A stretch of DNA of 33,394 bases, taken from Chitinophagales bacterium. GTDB taxonomy: Bacteria; Bacteroidota; Bacteroidia; Chitinophagales; Chitinophagaceae. Shown here in pieces: positions 7,476-21,118 of the stretch; the stretch's first letter is position 1; every line of letters starts with the position of its first letter. Made by a program: the position numbers and the translations under genes. The notes beneath the pieces are model-generated. The model did not search any database. It was given only the letters and a program-made list of their open reading frames with translations, and was not told where the DNA came from. Location of the stretch: positions 1 through 33,394 of the forward strand of contig JAATGJ010000150.1 in assembly GCA_015654695.1 (NCBI GenBank). The letters run 5' to 3'.

Positions 7476-7653
7476 GTGTGCATTTCAAATTGTCATTCAA
7501 CATTTCCTAAACTGTAGCGAATTTTTAGCGCAAAGAACAAGAGAACCAAGAGAAATTGCGGAGAAACCAGTCATTTAAGGATACTACTCTGCATTTCCTC
7601 CTTTTCTTATTTCTCTGCGATTAAATAATATTTTGATAATTTGAAATGCACAC
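7476..7653. mobile_element. MITE-like element with 16-bp perfect terminal inverted repeats
   Basis: GTGTGCATTTCAAATT at 7476-7491 is repeated exactly in inverse orientation at 7638-7653, enclosing 146 bases with no plausible gene. Inside is a second imperfect palindrome with purine-rich arms (7528-7566 and 7587-7619; GCGCAAAG..., CGCAGAG...). It fills most of the 343-base gap upstream of the sigma gene and its right end touches the stop codon of the next gene. No obvious target-site duplication was found. Confidence 0.6.
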
Positions 7654-15269: not shown

Positions 15270-15622
15270 ATAGTTTATTCTGGCGAAAGTGAGTCGTGTA
15301 TTTTGGGATGAATCAACCATTCATTTAACTCACTGCTCGGTTTGATGATTTTTCACTTTAAAATAAATTATGAAATACGAAGGCACGAAGACAGGAAGAA
15401 ACGAAGTAAAAAAGACTTTGTGCCTCTGTGCCTTACTGTCTTTGTGTTTTAATAAAGAAAAAACTAAGTTGAGGCACCGCCTTCTTTTTTTCCATTGTGG
15501 ATATCCCAAACAGTTATTACCTTAGATTCCCCTTCCTGAAAACGTCCGTCTCCCGGTAGCATTTTACTTTCCGTCCACTTTATTTCTTATTAAGTTCATT
15601 ACTTAACCAAAATACAACAAAC
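15270..15622. other. Intergenic gap holding hairpin C
   Basis: 353 bases between two plus-strand genes. Apart from the hairpin at 15376-15450, a small nested inverted repeat (AGTGAGT...ACTCACT with ATGAAT/ATTCAT inside, about 15288-15335) lies just after the oxidase stop and may help termination, although no T run follows. Confidence 0.45.
15376..15450. repeat. Intergenic hairpin C (CACGAAG/CACAAAG arms)
   Basis: Left arm 15376-15406 (CGAAGGCACGAAGACAGGAAG) pairs imperfectly with right arm 15416-15450 (CTTTGTGCCTCTGTGCC, CTGTCTTTGTG), leaving a 9-base A-rich loop. The arms are made of repeating CACRAAG-type heptamers and match the style of hairpins A, B and D. Confidence 0.6.
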
Positions 15623-18420: not shown

Positions 18421-19476
18421 TTATTGTAATCCAAGAACTGAACGGTTAAAATTTTCATCTGTTTTAGCGCCGGCAAAATCGTCAAACGCTTTCTCCGTTA
18501 CCCGTATAATATTTTTTTGAATGAACTCCGCTCCTTCTTTGGCGCCATCTTCCGGGTGTTTTAAACAACATTCCCATTCCATCACGGCCCATCCTTTATA
18601 ATCGTATTGCGTCAGCTTACTGAAGATAGATTTAAAATCCACCTGTCCGTCACCCAATGAACGAAACCTTCCGGCCCGGTCTATCCAGCCCTGGTAACCG
18701 CCATATACTCCCTGTCTTCCGGTTGGATTAAATTCAGCATCTTTTACATGAAACATTTTTATCCGTTCGTGGTAAATATCTATATAAGAAAGATAGTCCA
18801 GGCACTGCAATACAAAATGTGAAGGGTCATATAATAAACATGCCCTTGTATGGTTCTTTACTTTTTCCAAAAATAATTCATAACTCACCCCGTCATGCAG
18901 GTCCTCACCCGGATGAATTTCATAACAAAGATCAATACCATTTTCATCAAATACATTTAGTATAGGTAACCAGCGGTTGGCTAATTCAGTGAACCCTGTT
19001 TCTACCAACCCGGCGGGGCGCTGCGGCCACGGATACATCATCGGCCAGAGTAATGCACCACTGAACGTTGCATGTGCATTCAATCCCAGGTGCTGCGAAG
19101 CTTTTGCCGCCCACTTTAATTGTTGCACAGCCCATTCTGTTCTTGCTTTACTGTTGCCATGCACACTGGCTGGTGCAAAGCCGTCAAATAATTTATCGTA
19201 AACAGGATTTACAGCTACCAGTTGACCCTGCAAATGTGTAGAGAGTTCGGATATTTCCAATCCACATTCATTTACGATACCTTTAATTTCATCTGCATAC
19301 GTTTTACTTTCCGCTGCTTTTTGCAGGTCAATACATCTTGCATCCCATGTGGGTAGCTGCACGGCTTTGAATCCTAATGATTCCGCCCAGAGACAAATGG
19401 AACGAAGATTATTAAATGGCGCAGCATCACCTAAGAACTGCGCTAAAAAAATTCCGGGGCCTTTGATTGTAGTCAT
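18421..19476 (-). CDS. Cytoplasmic TIM-barrel sugar isomerase/epimerase-like protein
   Basis: 351 residues, no signal peptide. It belongs to the AP-endonuclease-2-like TIM-barrel family (PF01261; IolE / xylose-isomerase-like). Candidate metal and active-site residues lie in CYEIHPGEDLHDG (Glu, His), LLYDPSHFVLQ (Asp, His), MFHVKDAEF (His, Asp) and WAVMEWECCLKHPEDG (Glu). In related keto-sugar clusters such proteins hydrate or isomerise the sugar released by DUF1080 enzymes; a plain isomerase role is equally possible. Its start codon sits 4 bases inside the left repeat of the GxxExxY insertion, which has probably replaced its original ribosome-binding region. Confidence 0.9.
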   Translation of the reverse strand: MTTIKGPGIFLAQFLGDAAPFNNLRSICLWAESLGFKAVQLPTWDARCIDLQKAAESKTYADEIKGIVNECGLEISELSTHLQGQLVAVNPVYDKLFDGFAPASVHGNSKARTEWAVQQLKWAAKASQHLGLNAHATFSGALLWPMMYPWPQRPAGLVETGFTELANRWLPILNVFDENGIDLCYEIHPGEDLHDGVSYELFLEKVKNHTRACLLYDPSHFVLQCLDYLSYIDIYHERIKMFHVKDAEFNPTGRQGVYGGYQGWIDRAGRFRSLGDGQVDFKSIFSKLTQYDYKGWAVMEWECCLKHPEDGAKEGAEFIQKNIIRVTEKAFDDFAGAKTDENFNRSVLGLQ

Positions 19477-19480
19477 AATA

Positions 19481-19520
19481 TTTCACGCAATGACGGCTAA
19501 GTTTACGCTAAGCCGCAAAG
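19481..19520. repeat. Left arm of inverted repeat flanking the GxxExxY gene (hairpin D)
   Basis: TTTCACGCAATGACGGCTAA and the following bases match the inverse of 19915-19948 at 17 of 21 outer positions, plus an inner CGCAAAG. GCTAAG occurs twice within the arm. Confidence 0.65.
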
Positions 19521-19522
19521 TT

Positions 19523-19900
19523 TTATAAATTGTTTACGATTCTATGAATTCCATCTTTAATAAGGGGTACATTAAAATTAATAAGTAATCCTAACTTAAG
19601 GTTTGTAAGCCGCAAATAAGTAAGCAATTGTTTGTAATGTACGGGTGCCAATGCTTCGACTGATTTAAATTCTATAATCACTTTATTATCCAGAATAATA
19701 TCAGGAATAAAACCAATACCCATATCAATTCCTTTGTGAATTACTTTTATTCCCTGCTGTTTTACAAAAGAAATCTTTGTCTCCGTCCACTCAAAAGCAA
19801 AAATCTGTTCATATACACTTTCAAAAAGTCCCGGTCCATAATCTTTATGGATATTAAAACAAATATTTACTGCAATTTTTGCAATTTCATTCTCTGACAT
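19523..19900 (-). CDS. GxxExxY-family protein (PD-(D/E)XK nuclease-like)
   Basis: 125 residues. The family signature GLFESVY (GxxExxY) is near residue 24, and a PD-(D/E)XK-type core follows: IGFIPDIILDNKVIIEFKSVE, where Asp, Glu and Lys occupy the nuclease positions. The end LKLGLLINFNVPLIKDGIHRIVNN is typical. Function is not established for the family; the fold suggests DNA cleavage. The gene lies inside a sugar operon and is closely bounded by inverted repeats on both sides, so it looks like cargo of, or an enzyme acting on, that repeat. It has no metabolic link to its neighbours. Confidence 0.9.
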   Translation of the reverse strand: MSENEIAKIAVNICFNIHKDYGPGLFESVYEQIFAFEWTETKISFVKQQGIKVIHKGIDMGIGFIPDIILDNKVIIEFKSVEALAPVHYKQLLTYLRLTNLKLGLLINFNVPLIKDGIHRIVNNL

Positions 19901-19914
19901 AAGAAATTAAATAT

Positions 19915-19948
19915 TTCCTTTGCGGGTCTTTGCTGTCTTTGCGTGGAA
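19915..19948. repeat. Right arm of inverted repeat flanking the GxxExxY gene (hairpin D)
   Basis: The reverse complement starts TTCCACGCAAAGACAGCAAA and mirrors the left arm at 19481-19520. It ends one base before the stop codon of the Gfo/Idh/MocA gene, so the repeat-bounded unit occupies the whole space between two operon genes. Confidence 0.65.
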
Positions 19949-21118
19949 CTATACAACAAAGTCAGTCCACTTCTCATCGCTTGTATTACTCTTCACCACC
20001 GTATCAATAAACGCCATCCCTCTTATTCCATCTTCCACTCCGGGGAAATCAAGCATTTCTTTTGTCGCTTTTTCACCGTCAAGTTTTGCCAATAATGTCA
20101 GTGCGAAATTTCTATAAATATTTCCAAAAGCCTCAAGATAACCTTCCGGGTGGCCACCGGGAGTGCGGCAATTATGAGTAGCATAACTGCTTAAGCGATC
20201 CCCATAATTTCCACCGGCCCTTAGTATCTGCGTTGGCTGATCCAGCCATTTTACCAATAAAGTATTAGGTTCATGCTGCGCCCATTCTATTCCGCCTTTT
20301 TCTCCATAGATACGGATCTTTAGCGCATTCTCTTCACCAGCCGCTACCTGCGACGCCATCAATACACCCGCAGCGCCATTATCAAAACGCAATAATACAT
20401 TACCATCATCATCCAATGCACGTCCTTCTACCATTATATTCAGGTCGGCGCAAAGCTTTGTTATTTTAAGCCCGGAAATATATTCAGCCAGGTGCGCCGC
20501 ATGTGTTCCTATATCACCCATTGCTCCGCTCTTCCCGCTTTTTTTCGGATCAGTTCTCCATGCGGCCTGCGCATTGCCTTCTCTTTCTGATAATTTGCTC
20601 AGCCATCCCTGCGGGTATTCCACCCATATCTTCCTGATCTTTCCCAATACACCATCCTTGGCCATAGCACGTGCCTGCTTCACCATCGGGTAACCGGAAT
20701 AGGTATGTGTAAGGCAAAGTATCAAACCTGTCTCTTCCACTTTTTTCTTTAATTGTTTGGCTTCATCGAGTGTAAAAGTGATGGGCTTTTCGATCACCAC
20801 ATTAAAACCATTATCCAATGCCATCATAGCCGGGGCGAAGTGTGCGAAGTTGGGAGTAACGATGGTAATAAAATCTATACGCTTATCAGCCGGGAGTGCC
20901 GCTTCTTTTTTTATCATTTCATCGTAGGTCAGGTAAATCCTGTCTTCCGGCAGGTATAATAATTTTCCTGATTGTTTAGCTATTTCAGGATTAATACTCA
21001 GTGCCCCGCAGGCCAGTTCTATTTGCCCGTCCATATTAGCGGCAATACGGTGAATAGCGCCGATGAAGGCGTCTGTGCCGCCACCAACCATTCCCATTTT
21101 TAATTTACGTGTCGCCAT
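19949..21118 (-). CDS. Gfo/Idh/MocA-family sugar oxidoreductase
   Basis: 389 residues. The N-terminal Rossmann fold has GMVGGGTDAFIG (NAD(P) binding, residues 9-20) and TPNFAH. The signature EKPI at 110-113 holds the catalytic-type Lys. The C-terminal substrate domain has GDIGTHAAHLAEYISG (Asp/His motif). It is cytoplasmic. Members interconvert hydroxyl and keto groups on sugars with NAD(P)H; in 3-keto-sugar pathways one reduces the 3-keto product back to the plain sugar. It is the first gene of the minus arm, and the rest of the arm is separated from it by the GxxExxY unit. The divergent partner is an MFS transporter 103 bases away. Confidence 0.92.
   Translation of the reverse strand: MATRKLKMGMVGGGTDAFIGAIHRIAANMDGQIELACGALSINPEIAKQSGKLLYLPEDRIYLTYDEMIKKEAALPADKRIDFITIVTPNFAHFAPAMMALDNGFNVVIEKPITFTLDEAKQLKKKVEETGLILCLTHTYSGYPMVKQARAMAKDGVLGKIRKIWVEYPQGWLSKLSEREGNAQAAWRTDPKKSGKSGAMGDIGTHAAHLAEYISGLKITKLCADLNIMVEGRALDDDGNVLLRFDNGAAGVLMASQVAAGEENALKIRIYGEKGGIEWAQHEPNTLLVKWLDQPTQILRAGGNYGDRLSSYATHNCRTPGGHPEGYLEAFGNIYRNFALTLLAKLDGEKATKEMLDFPGVEDGIRGMAFIDTVVKSNTSDEKWTDFVV

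Follow-up and report, generated by a model that had tools for sequence, protein, structure and literature searches.

A 33,394-nucleotide stretch of DNA from a Chitinophagales bacterium (contig JAATGJ010000150.1), called the window throughout, contains a short nuclease-like gene enclosed by inverted repeats and placed between two genes of a metabolic operon. The locus raises the question of how gene and repeats are related, and whether together they form a mobile or self-maintaining unit, as a first-pass annotation of the window had suggested. The features concerned are the following.

18421..19476, minus strand: downstream neighbor, xylose-isomerase-like TIM barrel (PF01261)
19484..19520, minus strand: 3' arm in gene direction, CTTTGCGGCTTAGCGTAAACTTAGCCGTCATTGCGTG, behind the GxxExxY gene
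19523..19900, minus strand: GxxExxY gene, 125 aa, PD-(D/E)XK nuclease fold (TIGR04256, PF13366, AlphaFold)
19918..19945, minus strand: 5' arm in gene direction, CACGCAAAGACAGCAAAGACCCGCAAAG, preceding the GxxExxY gene
19949..21118, minus strand: upstream neighbor, Gfo/Idh/MocA oxidoreductase (PF01408, PF22725, PF02894)
15384..15446, strand undefined: gene-free hairpin of the same word class, CACGAAG ... CTTTGTGCCTCTGTG (locus L295)

The gene and its arms in the window

The unit is 472 nt long and spans the interval from the Gfo/Idh/MocA stop (19949) to the TIM-barrel start (19476), filling the gap between these genes as had been described. The regions 19481-19520 and 19915-19948, which the annotation had called mutual inverted copies, do correspond: positions 19481-19501 and 19928-19948 show 81% complementarity over 21 nt (17/21), and the word CGCAAAG was located at 19514, with CTTTGCG at 19918 and 19937. 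The spacers flanking the gene, 48 and 46 nt in length, consist largely of CGCAAAG-like words in mirrored arrangement. The inverted-repeat signal is moderate in the window alone, where the spacers score 26 and 27 of 5000 first-order Markov shuffles reach that value, and very strong across relatives. No window match was obtained in Rfam at gathering scores. The GxxExxY gene is the sole ORF of note in the unit, which has no transposase gene and in this differs from a classical transposon, IS or MITE. A gene-free hairpin of the same heptamer style, of the kind that had been reported from elsewhere in the window, was found at approximately 15384-15446. The window also holds a gene-free inverted repeat at 7476-7653 with 20-nt arms and a 138-nt loop, the style of which is less clear. 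At the contig edge (8-400, minus strand) lies an IS200/IS605-type Y1 transposase gene whose readable flank is without such arms; it can be read on one side only, because the contig begins 8 bases beyond the gene.

The assignment of the gene as GxxExxY-like and PD-(D/E)XK-like was upheld. In profile searches the window protein matched TIGR04256 (E 7e-36, 123.1 bits, curated cut-off 35) and PF13366 (E 1e-34, 119.8 bits, cut-off 22), with PF13366 the sole match, and its AlphaFold model has a pLDDT of 96.2. It is a full-length family member in which the G..E..Y motif and the D and E-x-K residues are all present. Across 188 proteins, G, E and Y were kept in 188/188 and the catalytic D, E and K in 187, 187 and 188, respectively; L188 and L222, which have internal stops, were excluded from the structure alignment. 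The PD-(D/E)XK active site of the window protein is intact. The fold is RecB-like PD-(D/E)XK with QxxxY, as in Cas4. A feature of Cas4 is its four Fe-S cysteines, and these are lacking in the window protein, which has one cysteine among 125 residues. No solved structure related by sequence was found at E 0.1. At E 1e-5 the protein matched none of 50,697 phage records and five of 72,556 plasmid records, and PADLOC gave a weak, non-significant match to RTasPDDEXK (E 0.031). The protein family was already known, and a literature passage that carries its name states no function. What is new is that GxxExxY genes are linked to arms and to words specific for the clade: the open-access literature (bioRxiv preprints as such being outside it) yielded no account of arms beside these genes, and a search of that literature for the literal arm-word strings gave a sole match, which was unrelated.

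Arms, words and protein clades among relatives

Two sets of GxxExxY genes were compared. The family set comprised 110 distinct full-length genes from the same family and order (110 of the 114 full-length matches in 120 loci, with fragments and several contig-end matches outside the set). The global set comprised 78 genes from a one-genome-per-species scan, being the best 80 of at least 573 relatives less L219 and L228, which were dropped for short flanks. By record titles it covers at least ten phyla, and it is nearly all clade A because the relatives were found with patterns such as [LY]GPGL[LF]ESV. Clades were assigned by letters (A, GPG or RPG; B, GYG; C, GNG), with 22 of the 110 family-set genes classed as 'other'. 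The inverted-repeat score was obtained by aligning the upstream flank to the reverse complement of the downstream flank, and a threshold of at least 30 was applied. This score was reached by 74/110 family-set genes as compared with 4/73 control ORFs of the same loci, and by 61/78 global-set genes (again from the best 80 of at least 573) as compared with 15/261 control ORFs. The frequency check proposed with the first-pass annotation therefore came out in its favor.

The arms hold two to four copies of a seven-letter word which is tied to the protein clade, CRCNRAG for GPG proteins and CRCRGAT for GYG proteins. In the global set, CRCNRAG was present at least twice in the flanks of 75/76 clade-A genes, on both sides in 66, with a mean of 2.7 and 2.9 copies per 190-nt flank versus 0.33 and 0.11 farther out. 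In the family set at least two copies were found at 36/59 clade-A genes, 23 being without two such words, compared with 0/29 genes of clades B and C together and 3/22 of the others. CRCRGAT was found at 6/8 clade-B genes versus 4/59 of clade A and 1/21 of clade C, and [CA]RGATT at 14/21 clade-C genes versus 9/59 of clade A and 7/8 of clade B (both family set). After thinning to 60% identity (70 genes), CRCNRAG was retained in 18/31 family-set and 20/21 global clade-A genes, and in 0/3 of clades B and C. The gene-arm association stands after this thinning; the clade contrast rests on related sequences and is hardly tested once thinned, because three clade-B and -C genes remain at 60%. Among IS200-like (Y1) genes, for which 26 of 30 loci were readable, the flanks held two or more CRCNRAG words in 1/26 and CRCRGAT in 0/26.

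The 5.42-Mb genome from which the window comes has 14 PF13366 matches, some of which are pieces of one gene and three of which have an internal stop. Most have mirrored arms with differing words, namely CACAGAG, CGCAGAG, CACGGAT and others (by eye). Extra arms were seen at L237, L229, L240, L038 and L053, either as a complete hairpin ahead of the gene or as an additional 3' arm after it. Clade-C arms at L015, L159, L119 and L126 start with TGTCTGAAC or similar (by eye), and the stop codon of the upstream gene can therefore fall inside the arm.

Word units mostly start 8 nt apart (149/216 spacings). Those of one locus tend to share one variant across both arms, with 0.77-0.81 identity at variable positions versus 0.48 between loci. 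The spacing of units is mirrored between arms in 54/55 comparisons; 9-11-9 in one arm is met by 9-11-9 in the other, for instance, and 9-8 by 9-8. When the arms of a locus are compared in other registers the value is 0.75, and this contrast rests on the few mixed-spacing loci. Such mirrored spacing suggests that the two arms come together, either by forming a hairpin in single-stranded DNA or through a bridging protein. Plain pairing of an RNA stem was considered as well. Among the arm mismatches of the 144/188 loci scoring at least 30 there was no G.U excess on the sense strand (231 sense versus 245 antisense, p 0.55), and in-register letter co-variation between arms showed no significant excess (0.813 versus 0.800 permuted, sd 0.0125; 38 loci), both of which speak against it. 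The units lie close to their neighbors, with a median of 11 nt from the upstream stop to the first unit and of 14 nt from the last unit to the next start (75 loci each). Neighbors are mostly co-directional with the gene (n=173: ++ 119, +- 26, -+ 18, -- 10).

The proposed co-variation of arms with protein subfamily, already visible in the clade-specific words, was also apparent on a FastTree tree of 188 proteins, in which 151 rows were labelled for arm type and 107 for word positions. Arm type changes seven times on this tree, whereas 1000 label shuffles gave 33.4 changes (minimum 28). In arms of the CRCNRAG type, word position 2 changes 15 times versus 35.4 shuffled and position 5 changes 21 times versus 30.9, while the free position 4 behaves like chance (29 versus 31.2). 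That positions 2 and 5 track the tree while position 4 is free would be expected if certain fixed positions were recognized; the same pattern would arise under co-inheritance if position 4 drifted faster, and the co-variation of word and protein could be plain co-inheritance. In 104 genes, with shared descent uncorrected, residues 33 and 90 (the latter adjoining Q91) associate with word position 2, and residues 7, 8 and 15 with word position 5.

Occupied junctions, empty junctions and gene-free hairpins

The TIM-barrel gene was matched in 47/99 genomes, and 47 loci from 46 genomes were read, a partial match in G047 remaining outside the count. The Gfo gene precedes the TIM barrel in 39/47 loci, with no Gfo gene within reach in the other eight. 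At this junction a GxxExxY unit was present in 4/39 loci (the window, G004, G006 with an internal stop, and G025) and a unit with a PF05635 gene in 3/39 (G044, G036, G075). The gap measured 0-62 bp in 19/39 and 75-239 bp in 13/39. About 7 of these 13 longer gaps resemble gene-free word hairpins by eye, and L049 among them is of CGCAAAG type. G001 is the congener whose Gfo protein is most alike (90%), and its gap is 24 bp and holds no unit; no target site duplication was seen by eye between the window and G001, a pair too distant for this comparison. The GxxExxY proteins at Gfo-TIM are 68% alike between G000 and G004, and that of G025 is 47-50% like both.

A second junction, between TrpG and TrpD, had both genes in 27 of the 30 loci returned. 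Four of these 27 hold a GxxExxY unit (three of clade C or alike, by eye). In 18 the two genes lie no more than 63 bp apart, and three of these loci belong to the same genus; the other five are intermediate. GxxExxY matches were also found beside two of the three loci with TrpD out of reach (G005, G019). The G000 and G003 proteins at this junction are 92% alike, and all five proteins examined fall in one 11-leaf clade. Within the genus, match counts range from 2 to 14 in assemblies 64-100% complete. The search for empty sites in relatives, same genus included, thus yielded a short unit-free junction at both Gfo-TIM and TrpG-TrpD.

With regard to hairpins without a gene, CRCNRAG-N-CRCNRAG had 39 matches in the whole of the window's own genome versus 3 for the reversed pattern. 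Of 19 pair places examined by eye, about 13 have both arms and one is within an ORF. When 433 kb of this genome were scanned strictly for inverted repeats, 13 pairs were returned versus 2 when shuffled, four of the 13 with at least two words per arm; scanning these 433 kb for word clusters gave one paired class-A cluster, none of class B and none for three control words. At L297, L298, L301, L302 and L305, and in the window at about 12315 and at 15350-15500, hairpins seem by eye to lie within a larger MITE-like repeat with outer ends like GGTAGTGTCTCAATTT ... AAATTGAGGCACTACC.

The congener G004 had 415 word-pair matches versus 16 reversed, 398 of them of CGC type. The only clade-A gene found in this assembly (90% complete) has CGC-type arms and is the one located at the same Gfo-TIM junction as in the window. 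Among the first 100 matches listed, none of which is on the contig of the gene, 28/47 successive same-strand distances equal 18 nt, which is the 8+10 step of the arms of the G004 gene. Among the 28 clusters in the matches listed, 17 are plus-then-minus, none minus-then-plus and 11 single-strand. The sharing of word and spacing between the G004 gene arms and many hairpins elsewhere fits the earlier idea that the gene lies as if set into such a hairpin's loop. In 59 genomes the hairpin excess is moderately correlated with clade-A gene count (0.44, p 5e-4); a class-specific correlation of hairpins and genes at genome level was not found in these 59, values being about equal within and across classes. 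Hairpin excess is also correlated with Y1 counts (0.43). Gene-arm type and hairpin type are weakly related in 17 genomes (Spearman 0.49, p 0.044), with p 0.13 in the 13 genomes with at least 20 pairs. In G022 and G009 the excess of CRCNRAG pairs is 68 and 27, respectively; each of these genomes has one PF01797 match and none to PF13366. In G080 the excess is 44 pairs, with a single GxxExxY gene and nothing matching Y1.

PF05635 (the 23S rRNA intervening-sequence protein, a four-helix bundle) had eight matches in the window's own genome, and the seven tested all score at least 30; these seven loci hold no CRCNRAG, and two were tied by the best of 60 shuffles. PF05635 genes at L019-L025 and at L033, L058 and L184 were seen between inverted arms built of their own words.

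What the unit may be

Several described systems resemble the GxxExxY unit in part. REPIN/RAYT elements share with it inverted pairs of short repeats in many copies, mostly between genes, and a nuclease gene adjoining cognate repeats; in the cited passages a small nuclease gene lies by its cognate repeats, and repeat and nuclease vary together (PMC3116915, PMC8266576). Unlike RAYT, an HUH Y1 protein (PF01797), the GxxExxY protein has a PD-(D/E)XK fold and no PF01797 match. The GxxExxY arms differ in being tandem octamers of mirrored spacing that enclose the gene; the two spacers of the window contain no GTAG or CTAC, and Y1 genes here are without word arms. The intervening sequences (IVS) of 23S rRNA also carry a short ORF between inverted arms, but the window unit lies between two protein genes and not in 23S rRNA, and encodes a PF13366 rather than a PF05635 protein. 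The TAACTGA/heptanucleotide repeats of Beggiatoaceae and Cyanobacteria are likewise seven-letter words repeated between genes; they are described as mainly direct repeats upstream of starts, and the cited passage names no nuclease gene (PMC4679880). CGTC palindromic repeats, reported from several phyla including Bacteroidetes and without a transposase gene (PMC3733652), are likened here by description, with sequences uncompared, and the cited passages carry no link to GxxExxY.

The locus is probably best read as a partnership of the REPIN/RAYT kind, in which the nuclease that goes with the hairpin repeats is RecB/Cas4-like and unrelated to RAYT. We favor, with a probability of about 0.6, the view that gene and arms are one unit, that the protein is a RecB/Cas4-like nuclease cognate to the word, that gene-free arm pairs are its non-autonomous counterparts, and that units are gained, replaced and lost. 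The observations behind it are the gene-arm association, the co-variation of word and clade, the mirrored spacing, the conserved active site and the occurrence of both occupied and empty junctions. The many G004 word pairs, with the word type and step of the gene's arms, and the Y1 flanks without the words also speak for it. The proposed unit would consist of a stand-alone RecB/Cas4-like nuclease gene with the cognate word two to four times in mirror image around it, and the gene-free arm pairs scattered in many genomes would be non-autonomous hairpins. It would settle at compact, mostly co-directional gene junctions, where co-transcription from the host operon may be possible, and would be gained, replaced and lost over evolutionary time. 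We infer that the nuclease may recognize and cut the words, as a single-stranded hairpin or as paired arms, and that cutting could lead to new hairpin copies, whether or not their loop contains the gene, as proposed for RAYT/REPIN. The nuclease would in that case cut the arms or move them. The suggestion of a mobile or self-maintaining unit is supported in part, by the association, the co-variation and the empty junctions; a transposition event, a target duplication or an excision product was not seen. Several findings weigh against the favored view: the excess pairs of G022 and G009 in the face of no PF13366 match, the moderate correlation at genome level (0.44), which is no higher within classes than between them, the comparable correlation with Y1 counts (0.43), the weak agreement of gene-arm type with hairpin type, the 23/59 family-set clade-A genes without two CRCNRAG words, the dependence of the clade contrast on related sequences, and co-inheritance as a possible source of the co-variation.

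Were the unit an RNA-level element like the 23S rRNA IVS, the arms would pair in the transcript, RNase III would excise or insulate the loop, and the protein would be incidental or act elsewhere. Such an element would suit the way gene direction follows the neighbors (++ 119, -- 10, n=173) and the PF05635 genes, which have the same kind of arm (7/7 tested scoring at least 30) and occupy the same junction in three relatives; in the cited passage, moreover, in vitro cleavage by RNase III is described for the arms of the Coxiella element (PMC4990558). We consider it unlikely, however, given the lack of a G.U excess (231 versus 245, p 0.55) and of in-register co-variation (0.813 versus 0.800), and it leaves unexplained why the word follows the protein clade. 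Similarly improbable is that the hairpins are an independent repeat moved by a RAYT/Y1 nuclease or by the host, with GxxExxY and PF05635 genes as passengers in the loops. The many hairpins of G022 and G009, which have no GxxExxY gene and one PF01797 match each, the correlation of hairpin excess with Y1 counts (0.43), the architecture common to two unrelated protein families and the enclosure, by eye, of some own-genome hairpins in a larger repeat that has separate outer ends all agree with it. Y1 flanks are nevertheless without the words (1/26) while GxxExxY flanks carry a clade-specific one, G080 combines 44 excess pairs with one GxxExxY gene and no Y1, and matched words are not expected of random passengers.

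Two further explanations we regard as very unlikely. PD-(D/E)XK nucleases are common in defence, and the protein might have a cellular or defence role in which it acts on foreign DNA while the arms control how it is expressed or serve as a mark of self; the weak RTasPDDEXK match (E 0.031) points the same way, and Rpn proteins, of the PD-(D/E)XK group, are described in the cited passage as anti-phage toxin-antitoxin proteins (PMC10327210). That match is non-significant, however, the units occur singly and patchily in unrelated metabolic operons, and the same kind of arm occurs with no gene. It would equally be surprising if the units were old and immobile, vertically inherited with many losses, arms and protein being simply co-inherited. 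The 92% likeness of the G000 and G003 TrpG-TrpD proteins, the grouping of five in one 11-leaf clade and the 68% likeness of G000 and G004 at Gfo-TIM are compatible with this, but the G025 protein is 47-50% like those two, PF05635 units and gene-free hairpins of differing kinds are likewise found at that junction, and match counts vary from 2 to 14 within the genus (assemblies 64-100% complete).

A bolder form of the favored reading, in which gene and arms make up one unit, is offered tentatively and is on balance doubtful. The unit might represent a second, independently evolved hairpin-repeat system, present in at least ten phyla, in which a 125-residue nuclease of RecB/Cas4 fold recognizes its own octamer word and copies hairpins, sometimes with its own gene, into gene junctions; PF05635 would then be a parallel system with other words, making the 23S rRNA IVS a special case. 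At the level of the family, the findings tie a large group of proteins of unknown function to a short word that can be synthesized and tested, and the pairing of clade and word predicts specificity residues, namely 33 and 90 for position 2 and 7, 8 and 15 for position 5 (descent uncorrected). They would account for one class of the hairpins that lie between genes in many environmental bacteria, and they provide a case for studying the matching of nuclease and repeat over deep time.
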